Source: a bacterium (lineage in GTDB: Bacteria > CLD3 > SB21). Taken from it: DNA of 64,000 nt. Shown piece after piece: positions 38,902 through 55,756 of the stretch. The notes beneath the pieces are model-generated. The model was not told the origin of the DNA, did not search any database, and was given only the letters and a program-made list of their open reading frames with translations. The DNA is taken from NCBI GenBank assembly GCA_013360215.1, contig JABWCP010000001.1:277144-341143 (forward strand), in the 5' to 3' direction. The translations under genes and the position numbers were made by a program. Each line of letters begins with the position of its first letter. The stretch's first letter is position 1.

Positions 38902-39987
38902 ATGTTGCATAGAAAAAAAATCTTATTTATCGGAGGTTCTTACAATCAATCGACGATGATGTTCGCAATCTCCCAATATCTTAAGCACTACGAATGTTAT
39001 TTTACCCCTCACTATTGCGATGGTGTACTTGATCTTTTTGCTAAAGCGGGTATGCTTGATTTTACGCCGATCGGTGGGATTCATAAGAAAGTAACAGAAG
39101 AGTTTTTTAGTCGGATGGGAGTAGCGGTTGATTACAAAGGCCTTCTCTACGACTATGATCTAGTAGTGACATGTTCCGATTTGATCATACAAAAGAATAT
39201 CCGCACTAAAAAAATCGTATTGGTCCAGGAAGGCATGACCGACCCTGAGAATCTCATGTATCATCTTGTTCGTACCTTACGGCTTCCCCGATTTCTGGCC
39301 AGTACTTCGACCAATGGTTTGTCCGATTCTTACGAAATGTTCTGCGTCGCCTCGCAGGGGTACAAAGATTTTTTTGTACGAAAAGGAGTGCGTCCTGAAA
39401 AAATAGCGGTAACCGGCATACCAAACTACGATGATCTCGCGCGCCACACAGAAAACAACTTTCCGCATCATCACTTTGTTTTGGTGGCGACCTCGGACGC
39501 TCGGGAAACCTATAAACTGGATAACCGAAAAAAATTCATCCGCAAATGCGTCGCGATCGCAGCCGGACGGCCATTGATATTCAAATTGCACCCCAATGAA
39601 AATTTTGCCCGTGCGAAGCGCGAAATCGAAACTTACGCGCCCGGTTCCAAGGTTTATACGGACGGGGATACGATGGCGATGATTGCAAACTGCGACGTAT
39701 TGATTACCCAATATTCGACCGTGGTTTATGCCGGGATTGTATTCGGAAAGGAAGTGCATTCATATTTTGATCACGACACATTACATCAGATGGCGCCGAT
39801 GCAAAACGGCGGCGACTCCGCACGCCGTATCGCATTGATCTGCGAATCGGTTCTTCATCGTTCTCCAAAATCAAACGGCAAAACCCGCTATCCTGCTTTG
39901 CTTAGTTCGGGACGCTCCGTCTACGCCAAAGCGGTAAAGCGGTTAGCCTCGATCATGAATAAAACATTGATATCATGCACATCGTAA
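38902..39987 (+). CDS. GT-B-fold protein, glycosyltransferase or 2-epimerase-like, of the ulosonic acid locus
   Basis: A 361-residue soluble protein. The C-terminal half looks like a GT-B nucleotide-binding domain: GRPLIFKLHPNENFARAKRE is followed by CDVLITQYSTVVYAGIVFGKEV, as in CDP-glycerol glycerophosphotransferases, capsule transferases and UDP-GlcNAc 2-epimerases. The N-terminal half (KKILFIGGSYNQSTMMFAIS) is the acceptor-side domain. It overlaps the cytidylyltransferase gene by 13 bases, so a role with the CMP-sugar, as transferase or as epimerase supplying a precursor, is likely. Confidence 0.65.
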   Translation: MLHRKKILFIGGSYNQSTMMFAISQYLKHYECYFTPHYCDGVLDLFAKAGMLDFTPIGGIHKKVTEEFFSRMGVAVDYKGLLYDYDLVVTCSDLIIQKNIRTKKIVLVQEGMTDPENLMYHLVRTLRLPRFLASTSTNGLSDSYEMFCVASQGYKDFFVRKGVRPEKIAVTGIPNYDDLARHTENNFPHHHFVLVATSDARETYKLDNRKKFIRKCVAIAAGRPLIFKLHPNENFARAKREIETYAPGSKVYTDGDTMAMIANCDVLITQYSTVVYAGIVFGKEVHSYFDHDTLHQMAPMQNGGDSARRIALICESVLHRSPKSNGKTRYPALLSSGRSVYAKAVKRLASIMNKTLISCTS

Positions 39988-40781
39988 CGATTGTTCAAGC
40001 CCGGTTATCCTCGACGCGATTACCAGGCAAAGTTCTGCTCCATGCCGCCGGCCAGCCTCTTCTAGGTCATATTGTTCGTCGTATCCAATCTAGTCGATAT
40101 GCCGGCACAGTCATCGTCGCTACTACCAGCAATGAGTCCGACGATCCGATAGAATTCTTTTGCCAAAAAGAAGGAATTCAATGTTTCCGCGGACATCCGA
40201 CCGATCTTTTAGACCGACATCTGATGGCTGCGCGCCTATATCGTGCGCAAGCCGTTGTCAAAATTCCCTCCGACTGCCCGCTGATTGATCCGGCGATCAT
40301 TGATCGCGTTATTGAATACTATCTTGCACACTCCGATCAATACGACTACGTGAGTAATTTGCATCCGGCGACATACCCGGATGGCAATGACGTCGAAATC
40401 ATGAACATTGCCGCTTTGACCACGGCATGGAAAGAGGCGCACCGTCCCATGGAACGCGAACACACGACTCCGTTTTTTTGGGAGAATCGCGAGCGATTTC
40501 GGATCGGTAATGTGGCTTGGGAATCGGGGTTAGATTATTCCATGTCGCACCGTTGGACATTGGACTATGCGGAGGACTACGAATTAATTTGCCGGATATA
40601 CGACGCCTTATATAAAGAAGACGAGGTGCCTTTTACTATCGCACAAATTCTGACTTTGCTTGAAACCCGACCAGAATTGGCCACAATCAATCAACGCTAT
40701 TTGGGCGTGAACTGGTATCGTCATCATTTGGATGAATTGAAAACAGTCACTTCCAAAAGCACCAATCCAACTTTTCTATAG
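39975..40781 (+). CDS. SpsF-type cytidylyltransferase
   Basis: A 268-residue GT-A-fold nucleotidyltransferase of the SpsF/NeuA group, expected to activate a ulosonic acid with CTP. It shows the nucleotide motif VQARLSSTRLPGKVLL, the KIPSDCPLIDPAIID segment with catalytic Asp, and YDYVSNLHPATYPDGNDVE. In Bacillus subtilis, SpsF works beside the NeuB-like SpsE. First core enzyme of the sugar pathway; the NeuB-type gene lies 4.6 kb downstream on the same strand. Confidence 0.85.
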   Translation: MHIVTIVQARLSSTRLPGKVLLHAAGQPLLGHIVRRIQSSRYAGTVIVATTSNESDDPIEFFCQKEGIQCFRGHPTDLLDRHLMAARLYRAQAVVKIPSDCPLIDPAIIDRVIEYYLAHSDQYDYVSNLHPATYPDGNDVEIMNIAALTTAWKEAHRPMEREHTTPFFWENRERFRIGNVAWESGLDYSMSHRWTLDYAEDYELICRIYDALYKEDEVPFTIAQILTLLETRPELATINQRYLGVNWYRHHLDELKTVTSKSTNPTFL

Positions 40782-40789
40782 GAATCGTT

Positions 40790-41647
40790 ATGCGCCGACT
40801 CGCACTGGACGAACTGCCCATCATCGCACAAAATGTGCGCGAACACATATTGCGTATGTCCACCGACGGCGGATGTTTTACCGGCGCTTCCTTGTCGTGT
40901 ACCGATCTGATCGTCTACTTGTATACACGCTTTTTAAATGTCTCTATTGATAATCTCTTTGATCCGGATCGCGATTATTTTTTTCTATCCAAGGGTCACG
41001 ATGTCCCTGCTCTCTATGGGACGCTGGCAGAACTTGGATTTATCGCACGCGCTCGTCTTAGCAATCACTTGTCGAGTCATGACACAATATACTGGCATCC
41101 CAACCGAAACATCCCCGGCATCGAATTTCACAGCGGATCGTTAGGGCACCTGATTTCCGTCGCGGCTGGAGTTGCATTGGATTGCAAGCTTCATTCGTCA
41201 CCATCACGAATCGTCGTGGCGTTAGGCGACGGTGAACTTAACGAAGGATCGGTTTGGGAAGCGTGCTTGGTGGCTCAGGCCTACCGTCTTGATAATTTGA
41301 TCTTGTTGGTAGATCGCAATGCATTTCAGGCCAACGTGCGCACTGAATCTTTAATTCCGCTAGAACCTCTCGAAGACAAATTTTCAGCGTTCAATTTTTC
41401 CGTAACCTCTATTGACGGCCATGATTTTGAGGCCATGGAGGAAACCTTTGCCCGTATTCCGATGGCAGATGGTAAACCAACCGCCATCATTGCACATACC
41501 GTTCGCGGCAAGGGCGTCCCCAGCATCGAAGCGAGAGCGGATCGTTGGTTTTGCAATTTTTCTCATGACGAGGTACAGCAGTTGATCAATGAACTTCATA
41601 CCAACCAATCGGCGGAACTAACTAGTGACACCTTATTGGTCCGGTAA
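40790..41647 (+). CDS. Split transketolase, N-terminal (TPP-binding) subunit
   Basis: A 285-residue thiamine diphosphate-binding half of a two-subunit transketolase. The TPP motif is GDGELNEGSVWEACLVA followed by VDRN; the usual FLSKGH appears as FFLSKGHDVPALY. It lies 8 bases after the cytidylyltransferase gene. Because it sits inside a sugar-nucleotide locus, it is probably dedicated to making a precursor by two-carbon transfer rather than to the pentose phosphate pathway. Confidence 0.9.
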   Translation: MRRLALDELPIIAQNVREHILRMSTDGGCFTGASLSCTDLIVYLYTRFLNVSIDNLFDPDRDYFFLSKGHDVPALYGTLAELGFIARARLSNHLSSHDTIYWHPNRNIPGIEFHSGSLGHLISVAAGVALDCKLHSSPSRIVVALGDGELNEGSVWEACLVAQAYRLDNLILLVDRNAFQANVRTESLIPLEPLEDKFSAFNFSVTSIDGHDFEAMEETFARIPMADGKPTAIIAHTVRGKGVPSIEARADRWFCNFSHDEVQQLINELHTNQSAELTSDTLLVR

Positions 41648-41745
41648 CAATTACGTTGATTAGATAACATTTCTGCTTTCTCCATAAAGAAACTTCTACA
41701 TCGGCATAATCTTAGCGCTACAATTGAAGGTTATCTTTACACATC

Positions 41746-42669
41746 ATGAAAATTAAAATCAATGAAACCTACGAAGATATCCTGACCGATCTAGTCCATC
41801 AAGACAATCGGTTTATGGCGCTAACTGCAGAAAATCGAGCGCCGATTCGAGGAATACCGGATCGCATCGGTTCGCGTTTTGTAGATACCGGCATCACCGA
41901 ACAAACGTTGATCGGTATGGCCGCCGGTCTGGCATTGCGCGGACGCATCCCCGTCGCGCATGCGCTAGCTTCATTTCTTACCATGCGCGCATTCGAATTC
42001 ATTCGCACGGATGTTGGCATTGGAGCACTCCCGGTCAAAATGGTAGGGTACATACCCGGGATATTGTCGGACGCCAATGGGCCCACCCATCAGGCCATCG
42101 AAGATGTAAGCATCATGCGCACTATTCCTCCCGTCGGTATTTTCTGTCCCGCTGATATTGATGATCTTTTGATCGGCATTCGAACGGTATTGACTGATCC
42201 ACGGCCGTTTTATATCCGTTACAATCATCGACCGGCCAATTATGTACATAGTGATCAATTTGCCATCGGAAAGGCCGAAGTCATCAAAACCGGTTCGGAT
42301 ATAGCTATTTGCACATACGGCGCTTTATTCAATGAATGCCTTCAAGCCTCGACTATACTTGAAGATGAAGGTATCTCCGTGCGACTAATCAATTTGCGAA
42401 CGCTTAAACCTATTGACAAGGAAGCCCTGCTGTGCGCAATGCGTGAAACATCGCTTTTGGTAGCCGTTGAAGATCACTTTGAGACGGGCGGGCTATCTAC
42501 CATTCTATCCGAAATTATGGTTCAGGAGACCATGACGTATCCCCCGCTGTTATCTATCGCATTTCCGACTTGGTTCAAACCTGGTTTGCTCAATGACGTA
42601 CTCGAGCATGAACGGATGACCGGCGAACATATTGCCCAGCGTATTCTCACTCGTTATAACCAAAATTAA
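41746..42669 (+). CDS. Split transketolase, C-terminal subunit
   Basis: A 307-residue pyrimidine-binding/C-terminal half of the same enzyme. The catalytic Glu is in FVDTGITEQTLIGMAAGLAL; LRTLKPID is typical of the C-terminal domain. A 98-base gap precedes it, wider than elsewhere in this run. It is followed closely by the aminotransferase gene. Confidence 0.9.
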   Translation: MKIKINETYEDILTDLVHQDNRFMALTAENRAPIRGIPDRIGSRFVDTGITEQTLIGMAAGLALRGRIPVAHALASFLTMRAFEFIRTDVGIGALPVKMVGYIPGILSDANGPTHQAIEDVSIMRTIPPVGIFCPADIDDLLIGIRTVLTDPRPFYIRYNHRPANYVHSDQFAIGKAEVIKTGSDIAICTYGALFNECLQASTILEDEGISVRLINLRTLKPIDKEALLCAMRETSLLVAVEDHFETGGLSTILSEIMVQETMTYPPLLSIAFPTWFKPGLLNDVLEHERMTGEHIAQRILTRYNQN

Positions 42670-42685
42670 CGCGTAATAACACTCT

Positions 42686-44035
42686 ATGACCATGACATCA
42701 CATCCCCTCAATATTGCGAACTCGGAAAAATACTATCAAAGAGCTTTGCCGCTTATTCCGGCGGGAACGCAAACGCTGGCCAAAGGACCGGGTCAATATG
42801 TGAACGGTTTTGCCCCCAAATATCTCGATCGCGGAAAAGGTGCGCACGTGTGGGATGTGGATGGAAATGAATTTATTGATTGGACGATGGGCGTAGGGCC
42901 GCTATCCCTCGGGTATGCATACCCTGCGGTAGATCGCGCGATATCCGATCAACTGAGAAAAGGAATCACTTTTTCGTTGATGCATCCATTGGAAGTCGAA
43001 GTCGCTGAGTTAATACACGACGTGGTGCCCAATGCCGAATGCGTACGATTTAGTAAAACCGGGGCCGATGTAACAAGTGCCGCAATCCGACTTGCCCGCG
43101 CTTATACCGGGCGCGACAAGGTATTGTGTTGCGGATATCATGGATGGCACGATTGGTATATCGGCGTGACAGACCGTCACCTCGGAATACCTGACGCGGT
43201 ACGCGCGATGTCGTTCACGTTTGCGTATAATGATATCGCGTCGGTCGAGGCCTCTATAGACGAAAACACGGCGTGTGTCATACTCGAACCGATCGTTTTT
43301 GAAGAGCCTCAAGACAACTTTCTGCATAAACTGCGTGCATTATGCGATCGCCACGGGGTACTGCTCATTTTTGACGAAATGTGGACCGGTTTTCGTATCG
43401 CCATTGGCGGTGCTCAAGAATATTTTGACGTCCATGCCGATCTCGCTTGCTTTTCCAAAGCTATCGCTAACGGCATGCCTTTGTCGGTGTTAACGGGGCG
43501 CGCCGATATCATGCGGCTTCTAGAAAAAGATGTTTTCTTCTTTACGACATTTGGCGGTGAAGCGCTCTCCCTAGCGGCCTGCAAAGCAACGCTGGCCGAG
43601 TTGAGCATCCATGATGTGCCGTCTTATCTCAGGTCGATGGGTATAAAAATCAAAGACGGTTATAACCAAATCGCACAGGACATGAACTTAGCCTTTACCA
43701 AGTGCGTCGGCTTGCCATTTCGAAGTATGGTGACATTTGATCCAGCGGCCGGCAACCCTCTTGAGATGAAATCATTGCTACAACAGGAGTTGATTCGACG
43801 CGGTATCTTGTGGGGCGGATTTCACAATATGAGTTATGGTCATTCGGAAGCAGATATTCAAACCACACTTGCGGCTTATGCGGAGTCTCTGGAAATATTG
43901 GGAAAAGCCGTCGGTGATCATACCGTGCGTGAAAAACTTGCCGGACTACCCATCGAACCGGTATTTCGAAAAACTACAAATTTTAACACTAAGCCGGCTG
44001 TATCACTCACAAAACCGGATGTTACTACGAAATAA
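42686..44035 (+). CDS. Glutamate-1-semialdehyde aminomutase-like PLP aminotransferase
   Basis: Class III PLP enzyme of 449 residues, related to HemL but carrying locus-specific changes. PLP contacts are FDEMWTGFR and CFSKAIANGMP, where the Lys forms the Schiff base. HemL-like features are FSKTGADVTSAAIRLARAYTGR and GYHGWHDWY. In sugar loci, relatives transfer or move amino groups on sugar chains. The last 50 residues beyond the usual end are Thr/Lys/Pro-rich and probably disordered. Confidence 0.88.
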   Translation: MTMTSHPLNIANSEKYYQRALPLIPAGTQTLAKGPGQYVNGFAPKYLDRGKGAHVWDVDGNEFIDWTMGVGPLSLGYAYPAVDRAISDQLRKGITFSLMHPLEVEVAELIHDVVPNAECVRFSKTGADVTSAAIRLARAYTGRDKVLCCGYHGWHDWYIGVTDRHLGIPDAVRAMSFTFAYNDIASVEASIDENTACVILEPIVFEEPQDNFLHKLRALCDRHGVLLIFDEMWTGFRIAIGGAQEYFDVHADLACFSKAIANGMPLSVLTGRADIMRLLEKDVFFFTTFGGEALSLAACKATLAELSIHDVPSYLRSMGIKIKDGYNQIAQDMNLAFTKCVGLPFRSMVTFDPAAGNPLEMKSLLQQELIRRGILWGGFHNMSYGHSEADIQTTLAAYAESLEILGKAVGDHTVREKLAGLPIEPVFRKTTNFNTKPAVSLTKPDVTTK

Positions 44036-44058
44036 TTAAACCGATCGTTAACAACACT

Positions 44059-44889
44059 ATGACATCTTCCGCTTCCAATATGCCAGTTGATCTATTTTCA
44101 CTGCAAGGCCGCGTGGCCATAGTTACCGGTGCGTTGGGGTTGCTCGGTCAACAGCATTGCCGCGCCCTGACCGAAGCGGGGGCATCGGTTGTCGTTTGCG
44201 ACCTGGACGGCGACAAGTGCCGTGCTTTAGCCGAAACGCTGGGCCCCGGAGCGTTTGGTATTGGCGTCGACATCACAAATCCGGATTCGATCGGCACTCT
44301 CAAGGACGAAACTCTAAAGCGATATCAGAAGTTGGATATTCTCGTCAACAACGCGGCCATCAATGACGCCGTTGAGCATAGCGTTTCAAAGACGGACGTG
44401 TCGCAATTCGAAAACTATGCACTGAGTCACTGGAAAAAATCAATAGACGTCAACGTGACCGGCAATTTTTTATGCAATCAGATTTTGGGAACGGAGATGA
44501 CGCGTCGCGGTTCCGGAAGCATTATCCAGATTGCATCCACCTACGGCATCGTGGCACCGGATCAGCGGTTATATCGGGACGCGCAGGGAAAGCAAACCTT
44601 TTACAAGGCCGTATCGTATCCCGTTAGTAAAGCGGCCATCTTGTCCATGACACGTTATCTCGCGGCGTACTGGGGAGGTACGGGCGTACGCATCAACGCG
44701 CTATCGCCCGGCGGCGTAGAAAACGGGCAAGATGATTTTTTTATCGCTTCGTACGCGGCACGAACGCCAATGGGACGAATGGCAAGGCCTACAGACTATA
44801 AGGGTGCGCTGATCTTTTTAGCGAGTGATGCATCCGGCTATATGAACGGCGCGAACCTCGTCGTCGACGGAGGATGGACGATATGGTAG
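44059..44889 (+). CDS. Short-chain dehydrogenase/reductase
   Basis: A 276-residue NAD(P)-dependent oxidoreductase. The nucleotide motif is VTGALGLLGQQH and the catalytic Tyr and Lys are in YPVSKAAILS, with the Ser in IQIASTYG. ALSPGGVENGQ follows. It probably oxidises or reduces a hydroxyl of the sugar intermediate. The stop overlaps the HAD phosphatase start by 16 bases. Confidence 0.92.
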   Translation: MTSSASNMPVDLFSLQGRVAIVTGALGLLGQQHCRALTEAGASVVVCDLDGDKCRALAETLGPGAFGIGVDITNPDSIGTLKDETLKRYQKLDILVNNAAINDAVEHSVSKTDVSQFENYALSHWKKSIDVNVTGNFLCNQILGTEMTRRGSGSIIQIASTYGIVAPDQRLYRDAQGKQTFYKAVSYPVSKAAILSMTRYLAAYWGGTGVRINALSPGGVENGQDDFFIASYAARTPMGRMARPTDYKGALIFLASDASGYMNGANLVVDGGWTIW

Positions 44890-45386
44890 ACAATGCGCCC
44901 CTGCGCGGACGCATCGCGCCCATCAAATTATTGCTGACCGACGTAGACGGCGTACTTACTGATAACGGCGTGTACTATACGGATCAAGGCGAAGCGGCAA
45001 AGCGATTTTCAATACGCGACGGCATGGGCGTGGATCGTTTGCGAAAACTGAGATCTGTCGAGACGGGAATCATCACCGGAGAAACTTCTGTTTCCGTCAC
45101 TCATCGCGCCGCTAAGCTCGGTATTGTAGAATTACACATAGGCATATCCGATAAATACAACACCCTACTTCAAATACTTGAAAGAAGAAACCTGACCTGG
45201 GATGAAGTCGCTTATATAGGCGATGATTTCAATGACATTGAAGTGTTACGCGCGGTGGGTTTTTCGGCATGCCCGGCCGATGCCATGCCGCCGGTCATCA
45301 ATGTCTCACATTATTGGTGCCGACACAACGGCGGCCAGGGTGCCTTCCGCGAGCTGGCTGAGCTAATCATAGAATACAAACCATAG
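44874..45386 (+). CDS. KdsC-like HAD phosphatase
   Basis: A 170-residue C0-type HAD phosphatase. Catalytic Asp residues are in LLLTDVDGVLTDNGVYY; FSIRDGMGV, ITGE and AYIGDDFNDIEVL follow, all as in KdsC, which removes phosphate from Kdo 8-phosphate. Here it should dephosphorylate the product of the NeuB-type synthase, so that synthase likely uses a phosphorylated aldose. A second in-frame ATG lies 3 codons downstream. Confidence 0.9.
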   Translation: MDDMVDNAPLRGRIAPIKLLLTDVDGVLTDNGVYYTDQGEAAKRFSIRDGMGVDRLRKLRSVETGIITGETSVSVTHRAAKLGIVELHIGISDKYNTLLQILERRNLTWDEVAYIGDDFNDIEVLRAVGFSACPADAMPPVINVSHYWCRHNGGQGAFRELAELIIEYKP

Positions 45387-45406
45387 ACCAATCGGAGTGA
45401 AATGTC

Positions 45407-46312
45407 ATGCGCAAGCGAGAAGTCAAAATCGGTAAATCAACCGTTGGCGACGGGCACCCCGTCTATGTAATCGCGGAAATAGGCATCAATCACAATGGCT
45501 CCCTCGACGTAGCCAAAAAAATGATTGACGGTGCCGTATTTGCCGGGTGCAATGCGGTTAAATTTCAGAAAAGAACACCTGAACTTTGCGTACCAAAAGA
45601 TCAGTGGTACAGCGAGCGCGATACGCCGTGGGGACGCATGAGTTACATCGAATACCGTAATCGTATGGAGTTTACGTCGCAAGAGTACGCGCAAATTGAT
45701 GTTTATTGCAGGGAAAAAGGGATTGACTGGTTCGCATCTTGTTGGGACGAAGAAGCCGTCGATTTTATCGACCATTTTGATCCGCCGTGTTACAAAGTGG
45801 CTTCCGCAAGCTTGACGGATATCGCATTGCTGAAGCGCCTGGAAAAAACCGGAAAGCCGATTATTATTTCTACAGGGATGTCAACCATCCATGAGATTGA
45901 GACCGCGGTCGCGACAGTTCCGCACGAACAGTTATTGATCGCACACACGACCTCCGCCTATCCTTGTAAAGCCGAAGAGCTAAATCTTCGTATGATTCAA
46001 ACGCTGCGTGAAAAATATCCTACGATCCCTGTCGGTTACTCGGGGCACGAAACTGGCTTGACGCCGACATGGTCGGCCGTGAGTCTGGGTGCCTGTTTTG
46101 TCGAGCGGCATATCACACTGGATCGCGCCATGTGGGGCACCGATCAAGCCGCTTCGGTCGAAATTATCGGATTGCACCATCTCGTGCGTGACATTCGCGA
46201 TATCGAAAAAGCGCTCGGCGACGGCGTGAAGAAAGTCTATATGAGTGAAATTTCACCTATGCAGAAACTAAGACGTGTGCCGGCGTCCGCTATTAGTCAA
46301 AAGGCTGTCTAG
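45407..46312 (+). CDS. NeuB-type ulosonic acid synthase without SAF domain
   Basis: A 301-residue TIM-barrel synthase that condenses PEP with an aldose. NeuB features are VIAEIGINHNGSLDVAKKMID, NAVKFQKRTPEL, DTPWGRMSYIEYR, STGMSTIHEIETA and YSGHETG. Classical NeuB has about 45 more residues forming an antifreeze-like SAF domain that contacts the N-acetyl group of ManNAc. Here the chain stops at SAISQKAV, before that domain. The acceptor may therefore lack an N-acetyl group. GGAG precedes the ATG. Confidence 0.92.
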   Translation: MRKREVKIGKSTVGDGHPVYVIAEIGINHNGSLDVAKKMIDGAVFAGCNAVKFQKRTPELCVPKDQWYSERDTPWGRMSYIEYRNRMEFTSQEYAQIDVYCREKGIDWFASCWDEEAVDFIDHFDPPCYKVASASLTDIALLKRLEKTGKPIIISTGMSTIHEIETAVATVPHEQLLIAHTTSAYPCKAEELNLRMIQTLREKYPTIPVGYSGHETGLTPTWSAVSLGACFVERHITLDRAMWGTDQAASVEIIGLHHLVRDIRDIEKALGDGVKKVYMSEISPMQKLRRVPASAISQKAV

Positions 46313-46316
46313 TCCT

Positions 46317-47084
46317 ATGTCTAATACCAGCCTGGCAGCAACCGTACTTGTACTTGTCGGCGCGGTGATCATTATTGGCCTTGAAAGAATCAAGCCCTAC
46401 GATGCACGGCAGCATTTTTTTCGGCAGGAACTAGTGACGGATTTCTTTTACTACAACGCTTTTCAAAGTTTCATTCTCGGCCTCGTGATATCCGCCATAA
46501 TTGGCTGGTTGGATACTGTTTGCGGCAGAATTCACATCCCATTCTTCTTAGCATGGCCGTTCCTAGGACAACTTGCATTTTTCCTGGTACTTCACGATTT
46601 CTATATTTATTGGTTTCATCGCTGGCAACACCGCATTACGATACTCTGGCGCATTCATGAAGCACATCACTCCGCACGCAGTGTGGACTGGGTCTCGGGT
46701 ATGCGATCGCATGCATTAGAAATTCTGATTAACCAAACGATAGAATTTGCGCCGATCGTTTTACTTGGCGCTTCACCGGAGATCATCGTCTGGAAGGCGG
46801 CCATTGACGCGATCTGGGGAATGTATATTCACTCGAATATCAACGTTAAGTCAGGACGTCTGCAATATTTGATCAACGGTCCTGAAATGCATCGCTGGCA
46901 TCATGCTGTCCATGATACCCAGGCGTATAACAAAAACTTTTCTACAAAGCTGGCCATGTGGGATTGGATGTTCGGTACCGCATTTTTTCCGAAAGATCGA
47001 AAGCCCGAAGCGTATGGTTTGGATCATTCACATTTTCCGAATGGTTTTTTTAGGCAGTTCCTTTATGCATTCAGAAAGTCGTAA
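46317..47084 (+). CDS. Fatty acid hydroxylase / sterol desaturase-family protein
   Basis: A 255-residue membrane di-iron enzyme with four to five hydrophobic segments. The three histidine clusters are HDFYIYWFHRWQH, HEAHHS and HRWHHA. Relatives hydroxylate or desaturate lipids or carotenoids. The ATG at 46317 is 4 bases after the synthase stop; an ATG at 46275 would overlap it by 38 bases and add unrelated residues. Substrate unknown; it may modify the lipid anchor of the glycan. Confidence 0.85.
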   Translation: MSNTSLAATVLVLVGAVIIIGLERIKPYDARQHFFRQELVTDFFYYNAFQSFILGLVISAIIGWLDTVCGRIHIPFFLAWPFLGQLAFFLVLHDFYIYWFHRWQHRITILWRIHEAHHSARSVDWVSGMRSHALEILINQTIEFAPIVLLGASPEIIVWKAAIDAIWGMYIHSNINVKSGRLQYLINGPEMHRWHHAVHDTQAYNKNFSTKLAMWDWMFGTAFFPKDRKPEAYGLDHSHFPNGFFRQFLYAFRKS

Positions 47085-47087
47085 GTG

Positions 47088-47413
47088 ATGGCTTGGATTT
47101 ATCTTCTCATTGCCGGTGTTTTAGAAATAGGATGGGTTATTTGCCTGCGTTTATCCGAGGGGTTCACACGCGTGATCCCGATGATAGGTTACGCTGTTTT
47201 CGGGTTATTAGCCGCTTTTTCTTGAGCAAAGCACTTAAAACCATGCACGTAGGAACCGCGTATGCCATTTGGATGGGAATTGCCGTAACGGGAACGACGC
47301 TAACGAGTGTTCTTGTATACAAAGAGCCGACTTCCTGGATAAGAGTCGCATTCGTCGGATTAATCGTATTTGGAATTGTCGGCTTGCAACTTACTTCTCC
47401 ACAAAAACCATAG
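47088..47413 (+). pseudogene. SMR-family small multidrug efflux protein, frameshifted
   Basis: The frame from ATG 47088 gives MAWIYLLIAGVLEIGW, the typical N terminus of SugE/EmrE-type transporters, and runs to a TGA about 45 codons later. The next frame then continues SKALKTMHVGTAYAIWMGIAV and the last helix, ending at 47413. One extra T in the T5 run near 47215-47219 would join the two into a normal protein of about 109 residues. It may be a broken gene, a sequencing indel, or slippage on the T run. Original function: export of small cations. Confidence 0.8.
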
Positions 47414-47875: not shown

Positions 47876-48774
47876 ATCAACTTTCAGCGCTACTATTTCA
47901 ATCGTGGTATGCGTCGGATAACGACGAGAAATTTCATTTTCGCCTATTCGAATTTTTTGTTTTATCGGGCAGCATTTATTATGCCTGGTCTTGGGCTGAT
48001 TACATTCGCCAAATAAGCGACAATATACACCCACTAGGTATCGCGCAGCACGTGCCGATAGACTTCATGTATGGTAACATGATTCCGCATTTATTTGCTA
48101 TCGTGATAACGACATTGGCCTTTCTCATTTTTTTGGGACGCGCGCATCGCTACGCCCATGCAATAATTCTTGTGCTGTTGCATTTATTACTCGTAGCGCG
48201 CGATGCGATGGGTGAAATCGGGCATAGCGCTAATTTCATCGGTCTGAGTGTTCTGGCTTTAGCTGTAGCCTATGCGTCTTGCGGCCAGGACGGCGAAAGA
48301 CGACGCATGGCACTGGGACTGACTGTTTTTTTTATCGGACTGGGATATGTATCCGCCGCGCTATGCAAGCTGATTGCCACCGGCGTTTTTTGGCCTGATG
48401 GTATGCACCTCGCTCTGTGGATCGCAGAGAAAAAAATAGACACAATCGCCCGCACGGGCATTTACGAAGCTAATCCGCTTCAGCAAATGGTTTTGACACA
48501 TCACAGTGCAGGTACGTTGATGCTTGGTTTCGGTCTCACTGCGGAATTGCTGGGGTTCCTTATTTGGTGGAAACGATTTCGCCCGTACATCACCCTCTTG
48601 CTTGTGGCCATGCACACCGGCATATCGCTTACCATGAATATCCGCTTTGACTCCTTCATTTTGCAACTCCTTATTTTAGGTTTACCTTGGCCGATTTGGA
48701 AAAACAAAATATTAGACTACATCTCAAAAGTAAGCGGGAGTCGCAAAATCCTTAACAAAAATGCATCCGTATGA
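47872..48774 (+). CDS. HTTM-like polytopic membrane protein
   Basis: A 300-residue protein with about eight hydrophobic segments. It resembles the HTTM (vitamin K-dependent carboxylase-like) family: FEFFVLSGSIYYAWSW near the N terminus, HLLLVARDAMGEIGHSANF, GLGYVSAALCKLIATG, and VAMHTGISLTMNIRFD near the C terminus. Biochemical activity in bacteria is largely unknown. It overlaps both neighbours by 4 bases. Confidence 0.75.
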   Translation: MNQLSALLFQSWYASDNDEKFHFRLFEFFVLSGSIYYAWSWADYIRQISDNIHPLGIAQHVPIDFMYGNMIPHLFAIVITTLAFLIFLGRAHRYAHAIILVLLHLLLVARDAMGEIGHSANFIGLSVLALAVAYASCGQDGERRRMALGLTVFFIGLGYVSAALCKLIATGVFWPDGMHLALWIAEKKIDTIARTGIYEANPLQQMVLTHHSAGTLMLGFGLTAELLGFLIWWKRFRPYITLLLVAMHTGISLTMNIRFDSFILQLLILGLPWPIWKNKILDYISKVSGSRKILNKNASV

Positions 48775-49457
48775 TATTTATTGTCGTGTGGTTATTGTTG
48801 GCATTTTGGCCGATGCAAAAAAATCTGGTTGTTGAAGATTTTGAATCCGATGCACTCGGCGGTATTCCCGCCCGCTGGTATAATCGCGACGGTACAGGGC
48901 GTCCAAATTCCTATAGCGCGGATCTTCGCAGAGGTTACCAATACGAAGTTCTGTCGGAAAAGCCCGGCAACCAATTTTTACGATACAATGGATACCACGC
49001 AAAACACCTCGCGTTCCACTTTGTCAAGGATAGACATTGGTCAATTAAGAAATATCCCGTATTGACGTGGCGGTGGCGTGCATGGAAACTTCCGATAGGA
49101 GCCAATGAAGCCTTGGATGAAAAAAATGATGCCGTTTTGAGCGTGTATGTTGTTTTTGACAAAGGAAATTGGGTAAGGCCGCCGCAGGTCATTCGTTATG
49201 TATGGAGTTCGACACTCCCTATCGGAACCATACTTACAAAATCCTCCGGGCGTCAGAAGATCGTGGTCATTGCCTCGGGAAACAGAGACCTCGGCCAGTG
49301 GATCAACGTCACGCGTTCGATCTCAGACGATTATCAAAGCCTGTTCGGACATGCTGAAGTTCCTGATCCGATCTCTCTCCTCCTATTAAGCGATGCCGAT
49401 GATACGCAAACATGGGCCATTGGCGACTATGATGATTTCTCCATAGGCAGCTTATGA
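48771..49457 (+). CDS. DUF3047 domain protein
   Basis: A 228-residue exported or anchored protein, with a short hydrophobic N terminus (about residues 1-14). DUF3047 segments are VVEDFESDALGGIPARWY, LTWRWRAWKLP and IGDYDDFSIGSL. The domain looks like a carbohydrate-binding jelly roll. It overlaps the following glycosyltransferase gene by 4 bases. Confidence 0.85.
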   Translation: MIFIVVWLLLAFWPMQKNLVVEDFESDALGGIPARWYNRDGTGRPNSYSADLRRGYQYEVLSEKPGNQFLRYNGYHAKHLAFHFVKDRHWSIKKYPVLTWRWRAWKLPIGANEALDEKNDAVLSVYVVFDKGNWVRPPQVIRYVWSSTLPIGTILTKSSGRQKIVVIASGNRDLGQWINVTRSISDDYQSLFGHAEVPDPISLLLLSDADDTQTWAIGDYDDFSIGSL

Positions 49458-50599
49458 AGCCCAAGGTTCTTCACTTTAAGACAAATTTTCTCAATCCATC
49501 AGAGACGTTTATCGAACGACTTGTTACCGGCCACCAGACCTATGAGCCTATTTGCGCTTGCGCTAATCGCCGAACGCTTGCCAACAGTATCCGAACGTAT
49601 GTAATGCCAAAAGATGGTATGACGGGATTAGTCAATCGCTATGAATTGATGCTCAATCGGACACCCCGATTTCTGGATAGAATATTTGAGGATGAAAAAC
49701 CGGATATCATCCATGCACACTTCGGGTTAGATGCATACCGTATGGTACAAATATCCAAAAAAACAAAAACACCGTTGATCGTTGGGTTCTACGGATCGGA
49801 CGTCACACGACTTCCCAGAGAATTTGGATGGGAACGGCGATACGCAAGACTCGCGGCGCATGCGGACCATAGTATAGCACTATCTTCGCATATGCGTGAT
49901 CAGCTGATTCAGCTCCGGTTTCCGCCCGACAAAATATCCGTGGTTTATTTCGGCTTAGATCTAAATCGTTTTATTCATCATTTACGACCGCATGGAAATC
50001 GGATCATGTTGGTCGGTCGAATGGTGGAAAAAAAAGGGTTTTCGACCGCCCTTCAAGCTGCTCAGATACTAAAACAAGACGGCATACCGTTCGAAATGCA
50101 CTTCTACGGAGACGGTCCATTGTTGTCTTCGTTGCAGTCCTTGGTCCGGGAACGGAGCTTGCAGGATCGCGTTTCTTTTCACGGCTTGGTAAGCAATGAG
50201 CAAATACGCCTTGCGTTACATCAAAATCATATCATGATTGTGCCAAGCCGGCGTGCACGCGATGGCGATGAAGAGGGATTGCCTAATACGCTTATTGAAG
50301 CGATGGCTTCCGGTTTACCGGTTGTCGCTTCCCGACACGCGGCGATTCCGGAAGTGATCCGGCACCAAACGGACGGCCTATTGTTTGATGAAAATGACGT
50401 CCAAGCGCTTGCACTACACTTGAAGTATTTACTTGGGGCGCCAGAAAAAATGAAGAGCCTTTCCGTCAAAGCACGCCAACGCATCGAACAACTCGGTTTT
50501 TCCATTGACACGACCGTTCAAAAGATCGAAGATATTTATTCACACGTTTTGCAAAGTAAAAAATCCAAAACTCGTGATTTCACTTTCCGAGCGCAATGA
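49454..50599 (+). CDS. Glycosyltransferase family 4
   Basis: A 381-residue GT-B glycosyltransferase. The donor-binding EX7E motif is in EEGLPNTLIEAMASGLPVVAS; MLVGRMVEKKGF and FHGLVSN are typical. The acceptor is unknown. The 3' end overlaps the convergent flippase gene by 20 bases. Confidence 0.93.
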   Translation: MKPKVLHFKTNFLNPSETFIERLVTGHQTYEPICACANRRTLANSIRTYVMPKDGMTGLVNRYELMLNRTPRFLDRIFEDEKPDIIHAHFGLDAYRMVQISKKTKTPLIVGFYGSDVTRLPREFGWERRYARLAAHADHSIALSSHMRDQLIQLRFPPDKISVVYFGLDLNRFIHHLRPHGNRIMLVGRMVEKKGFSTALQAAQILKQDGIPFEMHFYGDGPLLSSLQSLVRERSLQDRVSFHGLVSNEQIRLALHQNHIMIVPSRRARDGDEEGLPNTLIEAMASGLPVVASRHAAIPEVIRHQTDGLLFDENDVQALALHLKYLLGAPEKMKSLSVKARQRIEQLGFSIDTTVQKIEDIYSHVLQSKKSKTRDFTFRAQ

Positions 50600-52067
50600 A
50601 TGCACGTCTGATCGTTTCCCGGTGAACCAAACCAAACTTCCAGCTTAACAAAAAAAATACAATCGCATAAATGACGAAGGAAATCACAAACCCTGATGCA
50701 TGCTGCGAAGCATCCAATACTCTATAGCGTATAAACCAAGTTGCCAGCCCTGACAGCGCCGCCAAGATCAGTACTTTCAGATAGTGATGGAAAGGAATGA
50801 CTTTGTAAAACGGCAACTTCATGTGATTTCCGATTCGCCGCAACGCCATGCACCAGGCGGCCATATTGGCCAGCCAGGCGGCCACAGCTGTCCCTGTAAT
50901 ACCCCACCAATACGTAAACGGAACGCACAATAAGGTGTTTGTGAGTACGAGAAATAACGACAGGAACAAAATTCCTCTTTTATCACCGAATGCCTGCAAC
51001 GCGCCGCCATAGGATGTGACACGGTGAAGCACGATCAAAGAAAACACTTGAAATGGAATAATAGACGCCATATAGGACGAGCCAAACATCAGGCAAATGA
51101 AATCTTGGGCTGAAGCGATAAAAAAAATCGTAATCGGGACGACGATCATCGTCACGTTGCGTATTGCACTATGCCACAATGCCGTTAAACGCTGCCGATC
51201 TTCATCCATAATATGACGTACAAATTGACCGATCAGTGCCGAACTCACCGCATAAGGTATCACCGCAACGATCGGAATTTCTTGCGCTCCAATATTGTAT
51301 TCCGCCAAAGCCACCGGTGTTAAAATCGCCGCCACGATAAATTTGTCCACATGTTTATTGAAACGGCTGATCAACGACGCCGAGCCGATGATAACGGAAA
51401 ATCGGATCTGCGCTATGACGGATCCTTTGGCCAAGGACTCACGATCGGGAGGCAAAATCAGGTCCATGAGATACCATGACATGACAAAACGAATGAAGGC
51501 ATATGCGGCAAGCCCATAAATAGCATAGGACAATGGAAATTTAAGAATCAGCGGGACTGCCAAAGCCAAAAGCGTCATGATGCTGGTAATAATCTGATAC
51601 CATGCTGCATAAGTTGTTCGAGCGAACGCAATAAGAATATTGGTTACCGGCCATGTCGGAACCTCCAGAATCATAACAAGAGACATCCAGGGCAAAAACT
51701 GTTTTAGATATTCAATCTGACTTTTTTCCCACTCTGCACTGAGAAACGACTCTATTATCAAGGGCAAAAAGCCTATTGCGAGCCCTACGACCAATGCCAT
51801 CAGCCCTACAATAGTGAAAGTCTGAAGGACTAAAGCGCGGCGTGCCTGAATTTCAGTTCGTTCAAAAAAATAAAAAATGCTGTCCGGAAAACCCATGGTC
51901 GCAATAAAGCGACCTACCTGAAAAATCATAAGTAAATAGCTCATCACGGCAAAATCAGATTTATCCAGCAACCGAACGATGATAATGGCTGTCAAAAGAT
52001 CAATACCCGTAGTCACAATGCCGGCAGCGGTTACGACAAATGCCTTTTTTCCTAATGCAGATGACAT
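50580..52067 (-). CDS. Wzx-like oligosaccharide flippase
   Basis: A 495-residue membrane protein with about 12-14 hydrophobic helices, of the MATE/MVF polysaccharide transporter type. It starts MSSALGKKAFVVTAAGIVTTGIDLL and keeps the ISRFNKHVDKFIVAAIL segment usual for Wzx-like proteins. It probably flips the lipid-linked glycan across the inner membrane. It overlaps the next glycosyltransferase gene upstream by 16 bases. Confidence 0.88.
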   Translation of the reverse strand: MSSALGKKAFVVTAAGIVTTGIDLLTAIIIVRLLDKSDFAVMSYLLMIFQVGRFIATMGFPDSIFYFFERTEIQARRALVLQTFTIVGLMALVVGLAIGFLPLIIESFLSAEWEKSQIEYLKQFLPWMSLVMILEVPTWPVTNILIAFARTTYAAWYQIITSIMTLLALAVPLILKFPLSYAIYGLAAYAFIRFVMSWYLMDLILPPDRESLAKGSVIAQIRFSVIIGSASLISRFNKHVDKFIVAAILTPVALAEYNIGAQEIPIVAVIPYAVSSALIGQFVRHIMDEDRQRLTALWHSAIRNVTMIVVPITIFFIASAQDFICLMFGSSYMASIIPFQVFSLIVLHRVTSYGGALQAFGDKRGILFLSLFLVLTNTLLCVPFTYWWGITGTAVAAWLANMAAWCMALRRIGNHMKLPFYKVIPFHHYLKVLILAALSGLATWFIRYRVLDASQHASGFVISFVIYAIVFFLLSWKFGLVHRETIRRAFIALGK

Positions 52068-53335
52068 AATGTACTTAATTGTTCTGCCAGCTTACTGGCG
52101 CCGTTCTCAGAGGAATATTTGTTTATTTGTTCAATCCGCGGATTGAATCTTAGAAGCTGATGGATAGCCGCGCCTTGCAAAATTTGAAAGAGGCCATCAG
52201 CCGCGTCCTGCGGCGACAGCTGGATGCCGATGCCGGTATCATGCAAGATATGGCTGATTTCAGAATTCGTCGCTAGCGACAACACCGGACGACCTATCGG
52301 CATGTAGTCCCACAGTTTCGCTGGAATAATGTCATTGCGCATTTCCGAGGCGCTTACAAGGAGAATATCATAGGTTAGCAGTTCATCAAGCATGGCATTA
52401 CCATAGACGGGTTTGTGCACCTCAAAATGCGACAAAACGCCAGCGGATTCCGCCAATATACGGTCTTGATCCGTCAGGGGTGCAAAAGAAATTATTTTAA
52501 CCGACGGGTTTATTCCGTCGTTGATTTCTTTTAAGCGTTTGAGCATGGCTATTACGGGAATGGCCGGGGACAACCATCGAAATGCACCCAAAAAAACGAT
52601 ACGAATTTCATTCGCTGATGACTTATGCGGACGCTGGGTCATTTCTTCATAAACCATATTCTCAAAACCATTATAAATAGTGGACATGCGGGACGCGCTA
52701 GCCGGATAAAATAAGCGATATCGCTCCTCGGTAACACACGACGTAAAAATGATTTTATCAGCATCGTTAATCCATCGGCGTTCTATCCTGCGGTCATAGA
52801 CTTGCGTCAGCCTGCTTCTGCGCTGATTGCGCACCGGGCATAGCATCCAGGGATCGCGAAAATCCGCTACCCACTTTACCCGTAAGGCCTTTGCAACGGT
52901 GCGTCCCAACCAATGCGAAGACCATGGATCAGCTGTGCTCCATACAACATCAGGATTAAACTGACGTGCGTAGGCTATGACCGACCGACGATGCAACCAC
53001 AGCAAAGGTAGCCATGTATCAATCGGAAACCACCGAGCTATAAATGAAAATGTCTCTTCTATACGATAAGAAGCCCCATGATTTGTCCCTGATGTGGTGC
53101 GATCGAGAGGAGTTTTCAGGGAAAGTATCGGTATGCCCTCCAGCAAGGCTATCTCTTCCTCCCCCAATCGCGATGAAGAATCGATGGTTACGATTGCCGG
53201 CTGCCAACCCAATGACTTCAACCGCACGGCCATTCGATACGGACGCTGGGACCCCACCCTCTTTCTTGGTGGAAAATATGGCGCTATCATAAGTATGCGA
53301 TGTGCGTCTTTTTTCATGACGGTTTGCGATGCCAC
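52052..53335 (-). CDS. Glycosyltransferase (GT4-like)
   Basis: A 427-residue GT-B protein. The N-terminal domain begins ILMIAPYFPPRKRVGSQRP; the C-terminal domain has KLWDYMPIGRPVLSLA, replacing the more common EAMA motif. A GTG at 53335 has GGAG 5 bases upstream; an ATG 6 codons downstream is possible. It overlaps both neighbours, so the three minus-strand genes form one unit. Confidence 0.85.
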   Translation of the reverse strand: MASQTVMKKDAHRILMIAPYFPPRKRVGSQRPYRMAVRLKSLGWQPAIVTIDSSSRLGEEEIALLEGIPILSLKTPLDRTTSGTNHGASYRIEETFSFIARWFPIDTWLPLLWLHRRSVIAYARQFNPDVVWSTADPWSSHWLGRTVAKALRVKWVADFRDPWMLCPVRNQRRSRLTQVYDRRIERRWINDADKIIFTSCVTEERYRLFYPASASRMSTIYNGFENMVYEEMTQRPHKSSANEIRIVFLGAFRWLSPAIPVIAMLKRLKEINDGINPSVKIISFAPLTDQDRILAESAGVLSHFEVHKPVYGNAMLDELLTYDILLVSASEMRNDIIPAKLWDYMPIGRPVLSLATNSEISHILHDTGIGIQLSPQDAADGLFQILQGAAIHQLLRFNPRIEQINKYSSENGASKLAEQLSTLCHLH

Positions 53336-54258
53336 AACTTCTCCGAAAATTCATAGAATGGTTTTTTCTGATGCATCCAACCAAAATGAAGCCAATACGG
53401 ACATACGCTCATAACATCTGATTTTCCCGGCCAGATGGTATGCAGATTTAGTAGTAAATGTTGAAGGGATTCGTTTTGCACGCCGCACAAGCGATGGACT
53501 TGCGGATCGGTATAATAACGGCATTGAACGTTTTGAAAATCAGCATCATGCTCGACCCAAGAAGCAATATAATCCATTTGTGGACTTTCATATCCATTCA
53601 TCCATGGAAGCAATGGAATCCCCAATCGTGCCATTGCGATGGCAAAGCTCCATTCGCACGACTCCAAAGCCCGACCTCTTTCATAAAGCCGGCTTTGAAA
53701 GTGTGTCTCGTGCTTTCTTGCAAGCATTGCCTGTGCTTCCCGGCATACGCGTTCGGTTTGTTCTGCACTCGCTGCGTAGATCATACCCGACTGAATACGC
53801 GGCAAATATCGTATTCCAAAGCGACCCATCGTTCGTCGTCTTCGATTTAGAAAAATATCGGCAAGTACGCCGAAATCTTTGGCCGCGCCAAAAAAATGAT
53901 CCGCGCGGAGATTCCCGGTAATCGTAAATTCATAGCCCGACAGTGTTTTCCATAGACGGTCCGGATTGCGGCAACAAATCATGTCACTGTCTAAAAACAA
54001 GTTGCGATCAAACGGCAAATACTGATGGATATGATGTTTGAACCCCACAATGGAACTGTGCTCGTCCGCAAGACGGTCCATAATCGTAATCTTCAGCTCC
54101 GACGCGTGTTTTGCGGCCTCAGCCAAATGCGACTCCGAAGCGATCAACGCAACCGGCCTTGTCACATCGTAACGCCGAATCGTATGAATCGCCGTGAGTG
54201 CATGCCACACGTATTTTTCATCCCCGTATGAATGAAATACGTATCCCTCTCTGTTCAC
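53314..54258 (-). CDS. GT-A-fold glycosyltransferase (GT8-like)
   Basis: A 314-residue protein. NLFLDSDMICCRNPDRLW contains a DxD motif (DSD) typical of metal-dependent GT-A transferases such as GT8. HALTAIHTIRR and LPRIQSGMIY fit this fold. First gene of the minus-strand flippase unit; the intergenic region upstream is shared with a divergent glycosyltransferase gene. Donor and acceptor are not known. Confidence 0.72.
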   Translation of the reverse strand: MNREGYVFHSYGDEKYVWHALTAIHTIRRYDVTRPVALIASESHLAEAAKHASELKITIMDRLADEHSSIVGFKHHIHQYLPFDRNLFLDSDMICCRNPDRLWKTLSGYEFTITGNLRADHFFGAAKDFGVLADIFLNRRRRTMGRFGIRYLPRIQSGMIYAASAEQTERVCREAQAMLARKHETHFQSRLYERGRALESCEWSFAIAMARLGIPLLPWMNGYESPQMDYIASWVEHDADFQNVQCRYYTDPQVHRLCGVQNESLQHLLLNLHTIWPGKSDVMSVCPYWLHFGWMHQKKPFYEFSEKLWHRKPS

Positions 54259-54541
54259 CTGCTGCTCCTCATATTTTGAATCTGTTTCCTTTCAATGCAA
54301 ATCATCTAAATAACAAAATAGTCCAATACAACGGCAAGCGCCGCAAGATTTTTCTTGCGCATGCAAGCACCGCATGGCATGAACATTTTTTTTCATCTAT
54401 CCGTTACCGGCGCATAATACATCGTTCACAAAAAGCCTACTTTCTAATATCACCGTAACACGATTTTTGATTCATTTCGGCGTACTCTTTGCGTAGCAAA
54501 TACTATGACAATTCATTAATTCATTTAAAGAAAGAAATGCC
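54259..54541. other. Divergent intergenic region in the glycan locus
   Basis: A 283-base region between two divergent transferase genes. It must hold both promoters, but I see no strong -35/-10 pair, repeat or RNA gene. Confidence 0.4.
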
Positions 54542-55756
54542 GTGCTTTCACGTTCAATGGTGTATCCGGTTACTTTTGAACCGCCGCGTATCTCTCCGAA
54601 ACCACAATTAAGGCTGGCCCTTTTTACGGGAAGTTACCAGTACATACGAGATGGTGTCGCGCTGACGTTGAACCGTTGGGTAAACTATCTTCTTTCACAG
54701 AATATCTCTGTGATGATATTCAGCCCCACGGCCAAACACCCGGCTCTGCATACAACCGGCCAACTCATTTCGGCGCCATCAATCGCTTTACCCGGTAGAT
54801 CGGAATACCGCATGGGTATTGGATTTTCGTCGTCCATGAAACGCGAGCTGGCACAATTCGACCCCAATCTCATTCACATCGCGACACCGGATTTGTTGGG
54901 AATTCGAGCGCTTGAATACGCAAAAGCTCAAGATATCCCGATGGTTATGTCATATCACACACACTTTACCGCTTATTTGAAATACTACAGACTAAATATG
55001 TTCGAGGCATCGGCATGGAAATATTTGACATGGTTTTACGGACAAGCGCGTCGAGTTTACGTGCCTACACAGTCGATGGCCGAGACTTTGGTTGACCGGA
55101 GCCTTAGCGATAAAATCGAAATTTGGCCGAGAGGTGTAGATTCTGATTTATTTCGACCGGAGATCAGAGACAATGCCTGGCGCCGTCAAATAGGCATAAA
55201 GGATGATGAAATCGCTGTGCTTTTTGTATCACGACTAGTTGCGGAAAAAAATCTGAAATTGCTCGGGCAAATTTTAACGCTCGCCATGCAAATGAACCGA
55301 CGCATTAGGCCTGTCATCGTCGGAGAAGGACCTGCCAGAAAAGAGCTTCAGAATACGTTGCCATCGGCCATTTTTTTAGGCCAACAAAATGGCAATGATC
55401 TGGCTAAGGTCTATGCGTGCTGCGACGTTTTTTTATTTCCCTCGGAAACGGAAACCTTTGGTAATGTCACACTTGAGGCTTTGGCGGCGGGCCTTCCGGT
55501 GATCGCCGCCGATGCGACCGGCAGCCGATCGCTGATCACCAACGAACATAATGGATTTCTTGCCGAACCCCTTGATGTGACAGATTTCGCAGCCAAACTG
55601 AATTTAATTTCAGAAAACCGGCAACTACGAAAGCGAATGAGCGCTCAGGCCCGTCAAACAGCTTTGCTTCGCCCATGGTCCCAGATCCATCAAAGTCTTC
55701 TGCAAAGCTATTATGACGTCCTCGCAGAAGGATTTCGCGATGAGGCCGCAGCGTGA
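54542..55756 (+). CDS. Glycosyltransferase family 4 (mannosyltransferase-like)
   Basis: A 404-residue GT-B glycosyltransferase similar in layout to GDP-mannose-dependent alpha-mannosyltransferases. LALFTGSYQYIRDGVALTL and HTHFTAYLKYY lie in the acceptor domain; IWPRGVDSDLF, LFVSRLVAEKNL and PSETETFGNVTLEALAAGLP in the donor domain. The start is a GTG. It overlaps the following gene by 4 bases. Confidence 0.92.
   Translation: MLSRSMVYPVTFEPPRISPKPQLRLALFTGSYQYIRDGVALTLNRWVNYLLSQNISVMIFSPTAKHPALHTTGQLISAPSIALPGRSEYRMGIGFSSSMKRELAQFDPNLIHIATPDLLGIRALEYAKAQDIPMVMSYHTHFTAYLKYYRLNMFEASAWKYLTWFYGQARRVYVPTQSMAETLVDRSLSDKIEIWPRGVDSDLFRPEIRDNAWRRQIGIKDDEIAVLFVSRLVAEKNLKLLGQILTLAMQMNRRIRPVIVGEGPARKELQNTLPSAIFLGQQNGNDLAKVYACCDVFLFPSETETFGNVTLEALAAGLPVIAADATGSRSLITNEHNGFLAEPLDVTDFAAKLNLISENRQLRKRMSAQARQTALLRPWSQIHQSLLQSYYDVLAEGFRDEAAA

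Follow-up and report, generated by a model that had tools for sequence, protein, structure and literature searches.

At positions 38902-46312 of the 64,000-nucleotide stretch of bacterial DNA analysed here (the window), eight open reading frames lie on the plus strand, each running from a start to a stop codon, with intergenic gaps of -12 to 102 bases. They encode a GT-B-fold protein (GTB), an SpsF-type cytidylyltransferase, the two halves of a split transketolase (TktN and TktC), a class-III pyridoxal phosphate (PLP) aminotransferase (AT), a short-chain dehydrogenase (SDR), a KdsC-like phosphatase and a NeuB-type synthase. An earlier note, made from the sequence alone, had named the same eight co-directional genes and families. 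Reading frames and Pfam searches agree with it, and the fold of GTB, for which the window's own gene has no Pfam match, comes from an AlphaFold model. All eight genes are present, but the unit is larger than the note had it. It consists of ten genes, the eight plus a PF04116 hydroxylase gene and an SMR-family gene that had been missed (Table 1). The profile nearest to the aminotransferase is the PRK06209 model, which is glutamate-1-semialdehyde aminomutase-like. In the window, the SMR-family gene is frameshifted in its first half, so that its two parts lie in different frames; orthologs are intact, and the frameshift could be an assembly error. The note had also proposed a pathway to an ulosonic acid activated with cytidine monophosphate (CMP), without the precursor enzymes of legionaminic or pseudaminic acid. 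Indeed, no uridine diphosphate (UDP)-sugar dehydratase, UDP-sugar epimerase, DegT-type aminotransferase or PseG/NeuC-type hydrolase is found among the ten conserved genes. An Rfam search gave no match, and promoter and terminator scans gave results at chance level.

Table 1. Genes of the module in the window, with the basis of each assignment.
Gene product	Position	Strand	Basis
GTB, GT-B-fold protein, probable transferase for CMP-sugar	38902..39987	+	AlphaFold model, Foldseek, ortholog PF04464, motifs
SpsF-type cytidylyltransferase	39975..40781	+	PF02348, 94.9 bits
TktN, divergent transketolase N half	40790..41647	+	PF00456 (Transketolase_N alone), 92 bits
TktC, divergent transketolase C half	41746..42669	+	PF02779 (Transket_pyr) and PF02780 (Transketolase_C)
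AT, class-III PLP aminotransferase, PRK06209-like	42686..44035	+	NF004856, 392 bits, under 486 cut-off
SDR, classical short-chain dehydrogenase	44059..44889	+	PF13561, 157 bits
KdsC-like HAD phosphatase, Kdn-9-phosphate phosphatase type	44874..45386	+	NF058599 best E-value, 151 bits, under 180 cut-off
NeuB-type synthase, 301 aa	45407..46312	+	PF03102, 257 bits
FAH, PF04116 membrane di-iron hydroxylase	46275..47084, alternative ATG start 46317	+	101 bits
SMR-family small transporter	47088..47413	+	PF00893 in the in-frame second part and in orthologs

Scanning 84,980 species genomes with the aminotransferase yielded 80 loci. Those with an AT of at least 56% identity, together with the window and a locus on a Methylomagnum plasmid, form one clade (100/99 support) apart from the rest, and among these 58 cassette-clade loci the ten gene families, and no others, are widely recurrent. 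Searching genomes for the gene order, as the earlier note had advised, showed that it recurs in Ignavibacteriota, Bacteroidota, Chloroflexota, Acidobacteriota, Chlorobiota and on the Methylomagnum plasmid, with identities of 40-70%. Complete or partial, the module is known from bacteria of at least six named phyla. Gene counts were taken from the 43 loci with enough flanking DNA: SpsF and AT are present in all 43, GTB and NeuB in 42 each, SDR in 41, TktN and TktC in 38 each, the hydroxylase in 36 (normally directly 3' of NeuB), the phosphatase in 34 and SMR in 27. Another genome of the window's own family (locus L139) has nine module genes in the same order.

The genes are also inherited together when they are not neighbours. 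Cassette TktN occurs in 25 of 395 Bacteroidia genomes, AT in those same 25, and cassette NeuB (at least 62% identity) again in the same 25, with two weaker matches besides. The genes are linked in 12 of these genomes and lie at three separate loci in the other 13 (in G297, at three places on one contig). The sub-operons of the dispersed genomes are GTB-SpsF-TktN; AT alone or with TktC or SDR; and KdsC-NeuB-hydroxylase-SMR-SMR. Almost every dispersed genome that was read keeps its hydroxylase and SMR genes together with KdsC-NeuB. Such overlap would arise by chance with a probability of about 1e-37 if the genomes were independent; they are not, and those with dispersed genes may all belong to a single lineage. 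Fusions were found as well. Phosphatase and NeuB form a single protein in 9 loci (Mucilaginibacter, Taibaiella and one Bacteroidetes), unfused NeuB proteins being mostly of about 290-310 residues, TktC is joined to AT in L035, and SpsF to TktN in L015. Because the order is conserved across phyla and the three genes co-occur in 25 of 25 genomes even when unlinked, the gene set is one pathway, far beyond chance, and not a chance run of genes. Transketolase and aminotransferase, present in the same genomes as NeuB, are true parts of it, as the earlier note had supposed. The genes very probably form a single pathway to a CMP-nonulosonate. CMP-nonulosonate synthesis is already known; the transketolase/aminotransferase tailoring set is new.

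The synthase and the phosphatase recall the enzymes of ketodeoxynonulosonic acid (Kdn). The best match of the phosphatase is the NCBI model for Kdn-9-phosphate phosphatase, though under its cut-off. The enzyme has an E in its TGE/TRE motif and a K in the next helix, both of which are found in 3e81, the structure of the Bacteroides Kdn-9-phosphate phosphatase, whereas R and T occupy these positions in KdsC structures; the E is invariant in the aligned set and the K is present in nearly all orthologs. Kdn-9-phosphate synthases use mannose-6-phosphate (PMC6200933). Since the phosphatase carries these residues, a common hexose phosphate is probably what the synthase turns into a Kdn-type nonulosonate. 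This is the simplest reading, and the Nonomuraea synthase described below adds to the case for it. The position equivalent to the single human NANS residue known to affect Kdn activity is variable in the cassette NeuB set, and uninformative.

The product might then be ordinary Kdn, or another known nonulosonic acid, with transketolase, SDR and AT carried along for an unrelated purpose. Besides the resemblance to the Kdn pair, this would fit a Nonomuraea locus in which the neighbours of a synthase 58% identical to cassette NeuB are a phosphatase and an apparent cytidylyltransferase, and no further module gene was found within 14 kb. However, the perfect co-occurrence of TktN, AT and NeuB, linked or not, the fusions and the conserved order make this explanation very improbable.

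The transketolase keeps cofactor-site residues and is altered where it would bind a phosphorylated substrate. TktN keeps the thiamine diphosphate (ThDP) motif GDGELNEG, and the ThDP-activating Glu (equivalent to human Glu366) is kept in 43/43 TktC sequences. In the human and yeast enzymes, R318, S345, H416, D424 and R474 (human numbering) bind the substrate phosphate. These positions are changed or unaligned in all 43 cassette sequences; the split transketolase of Carboxydothermus hydrogenoformans (6yaj) retains all five. TktN has GGCF.GASLS in place of the catalytic-His loop (42 sequences) and, unlike other transketolases, has no second histidine near its end. Some loci lack the split enzyme altogether, so that the earlier note's description of a pathway built around a split transketolase does not fit every member. 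In L026 an unrelated single-chain transketolase takes its place, and relatives of this enzyme (53-58%) are present in the genomes of L008, L009, L014, L044, L062 and L069, none of which yielded a split cassette transketolase. The single-chain enzyme also lacks the same five C-half residues. The loss of the phosphate site in two unrelated transketolases suggests that their substrate is unphosphorylated, and hence that they would act after the phosphatase.

Two other views of the transketolase were considered. That a housekeeping enzyme had been misread as a pathway gene was rejected, because a full-length transketolase and a further split one are encoded elsewhere in the window genome. That the transketolase is dispensable, as L009, L014, L044, L055, L062 and L069 had seemed to indicate, was largely withdrawn, since most of these genomes have the single-chain relative. 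Exceptions to this replacement are the genomes of L055 and L010 (G012, G016).

The aminotransferase, for its part, has a recurrent association with SpsF. In most loci of its more distant relatives (42-50%), the AT gene is paired with SpsF, with one fusion of the two (L087); where such loci were read gene by gene, they proved to be pseudaminic-type clusters or to contain some of the pseudaminic precursor genes. A published locus of Legionella Sg6 has the same pair of SpsF and PRK06209-type aminotransferase (PMC3694923). Such pseudaminic-type loci, Aeromonas caviae (L083) being another, share with the module the adjoining, sometimes fused, SpsF and AT genes. However, they keep precursor genes of PseC/PseG/PseH type and lack the cassette transketolase, GT-B protein and hydroxylase, all of which the module has. 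Because of this pairing, we place the aminotransferase near CMP activation.

These data bear on the proposal of the earlier note that transketolase and aminotransferase make a phosphorylated amino-aldose. In its fuller form, transketolase, SDR and AT would build this precursor and NeuB would condense it with phosphoenolpyruvate (PEP). The rifamycin aminoshikimate route, in which a split transketolase leads to imino-erythrose phosphate for a PEP-condensing synthase, is a model for such a sequence. The presence of a phosphatase implies that the substrate of the synthase is phosphorylated, and transketolase and AT are strictly co-inherited with NeuB; both points favour this order of steps. Yet the phosphate-binding residues are gone from the transketolase (43/43), the phosphatase is of Kdn type, and the partner of TktN in the dispersed operons is SpsF, not NeuB. 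Moreover, mannose-6-phosphate suffices for a synthase and phosphatase that look Kdn-type, and the same AT family pairs with SpsF in pseudaminic-type loci that already hold precursor enzymes. We consider a phosphorylated amino-aldose precursor unlikely.

The AlphaFold model of GTB has a predicted local distance difference test (pLDDT) score of 92.3. Foldseek relates it to UDP-N-acetylglucosamine 2-epimerases, a CMP-binding capsule multienzyme and TagF/TarL, and the fold is GT-B. PF04464 scores above cut-off in the ortholog of L009, and a profile match to the TagF-like polymerase Cps3D was found; together these matches favour a cytidylate-linked transferase. QEG and KxHPNE motifs are invariant in 47 GTB orthologs and recall the [DE][DE]G-like and HP motifs of bacterial sialyl-type GT-B transferases, to whose families (CMP-sugar transferases) GTB has no direct match. 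A lipid, as acceptor or as carrier, is suggested by the presence of the hydroxylase and the SMR transporter. Two tandem SMR genes lie 3' of KdsC-NeuB in L128, L130, L132, L134, L138 and L141, an arrangement known from paired SMR transporters.

A lipid can also be brought in differently, by joining two products. NeuB, phosphatase and SpsF would make plain CMP-Kdn, while transketolase, AT, SDR and hydroxylase would make an amino-alcohol acceptor: a fatty aldehyde, extended by a two-carbon unit and transaminated, would give a sphinganine-like base to which GTB adds Kdn. A transketolase with no phosphate site is what this scheme needs, and the hydroxylase and SMR transporter lie within the module. 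The PDB relatives of AT include 6hbs, a class-III aminotransferase for a sphingoid-like aminopentol. Genes resembling lipid N- and O-acyltransferases adjoin the Methylomagnum cassette, downstream of it, and Emiliania huxleyi is known to have a sphingolipid linked to Kdn (PMC6200933). Nevertheless, TktN travels with GTB-SpsF, and AT, whose relatives sit beside SpsF in sugar loci, is nearer to the PRK06209 enzymes of such loci than to lipid enzymes. Separate sugar and lipid products thus appear quite unlikely.

The mechanism that we prefer is late tailoring by a self-contained module, in which a CMP-activated, aminated, Kdn-type nonulosonic acid is made and transferred to an acceptor; we hold it tentatively and stop a little short of calling it probable. 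NeuB would condense PEP with a hexose-6-phosphate, for which mannose-6-phosphate is the likeliest candidate; the 9-phosphate would be stripped by the KdsC-like phosphatase. The SDR would then oxidise one hydroxyl of the unphosphorylated sugar, and at the carbonyl so made the transketolase would add or take a two-carbon unit. Removal is conceivable in that an 8-keto Kdn would serve transketolase as an ordinary ketol donor; extension by two carbons would be as in azinomycin. The aminotransferase would convert the resulting carbonyl to an amine, SpsF would couple the product to CMP, and GTB would transfer the CMP-sugar, perhaps onto lipid. In this sequence the steps run roughly counter to the order of the genes. 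From gene identity, conservation, co-occurrence, fusions and active-site residues, which the sequences show, we infer every substrate, the succession of the tailoring steps, which way the two-carbon unit moves, and the link to lipid.

Three observations weigh against late tailoring. The TktC-AT and SpsF-TktN fusions each come from one uncultured assembly. The nearest database structures of GTB are epimerases as much as transferases. Finally, despite the SpsF and AT pair of Sg6, the polymer of Legionella non-1 serogroups is reported to be without the extra amino group, according to the title of a reference within PMC3694923.

No description of the gene set was found in the open-licence literature, and the earlier note likewise knew of no characterised pathway with this set. 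Because a divergent transketolase and an aminotransferase are not known from any characterised pathway of this kind, the product, seemingly a sialic-acid-like sugar, is probably undescribed so far. A bolder claim would be that of a widespread, undescribed class of lipid-linked ulosonic acids, whose chain is remodelled on the unphosphorylated sugar through two-carbon transfer by either of two unrelated transketolases without a phosphate site, then aminated and CMP-activated. With all its parts taken together, we rate this claim as rather unlikely.

Among known systems, the Kdn pathway of Bacteroides thetaiotaomicron (BT1713-BT1715) shares with the module a NeuB-family synthase, a KdsC-like phosphatase with the E and K residues, and CMP activation. 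It differs in that the cytidylyltransferase of the module is SpsF-type and that transketolase, aminotransferase, SDR, hydroxylase and SMR are additional. A Kdn pathway has no tailoring enzymes before CMP activation, whereas here transketolase, AT and SDR are strictly associated. In Shewanella, the 8-amino derivative of ketodeoxyoctonic acid (Kdo), Kdo8N, is made by a dehydrogenase and an aminotransferase (KdnA/KdnB) acting on the free ulosonic acid before CMP activation. Kdo8N synthesis is defined by a KdsA-type synthase, the DegT-type aminotransferase KdnA and the iron alcohol dehydrogenase KdnB. The logic is alike, but the module has NeuB, an SDR, a class-III (PF00202) aminotransferase and an added transketolase, and lies outside that definition. 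In azinomycin synthesis, the split transketolase AziC5/AziC6 extends a non-phosphorylated aldehyde by two carbons, after which an aminotransferase aminates it (PMC9570651). This system and those of LysW type share with the module a split transketolase coupled to an aminotransferase on a non-phosphorylated aldehyde (PMC9570651); the module, however, has no carrier protein or semialdehyde genes, and its transketolase active site is further altered. A LysW-type cluster with a split transketolase and a DegT aminotransferase was seen at 6346-13675 of L123 (Streptomyces sp. NBC_01006 plasmid), and this is likely a vazabitide/azinomycin-like locus. On a Solidesulfovibrio carbinolicus plasmid (L124, 4525-10754), a split transketolase with most of the canonical residues lies with SDR, NeuB and PseF in a pseudaminic locus, which ties split transketolase to nonulosonic acid genes in a second case, separate from the module.

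About 6% of the sampled Bacteroidia and several other phyla carry the module, so that many environmental bacteria may bear a surface sugar or glycolipid that has gone unseen. Such a product would add two-carbon transfer plus amination to the chemistry of nonulosonic acid biosynthesis, and would give a transketolase family acting on a new substrate class. Culturable carriers (Mucilaginibacter, Hymenobacter, Taibaiella, Aquirufa) open the product to direct search.

In the window genome (G000), the Kdo transferase WaaA (PF04413) is absent and no KdsB scores above cut-off; the genome is therefore probably without Kdo-type lipopolysaccharide, and the module is not tied to the latter. A substitute for Kdo in lipopolysaccharide is unlikely too, because Chloroflexota carry the module. 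An apparent polysaccharide region lies downstream in the window (48771-56886: a DUF3047 protein, GT4-type glycosyltransferases and a Wzx-like flippase) and is not conserved with the module. The 87 flanking genes include no recurrent glycosyltransferase or polysaccharide family, and a capsule or O-antigen locus was rejected as a general feature, there being no such genes common to the flanks. A lone cassette-type NeuB (66% identity) lies near mobile elements on a Hymenobacter psoromatis plasmid (L004, 13992-14873), the other module genes being absent from the stretch read. In L041 and L043, the NeuB-hydroxylase-SMR segment runs opposite to the remaining cassette genes.

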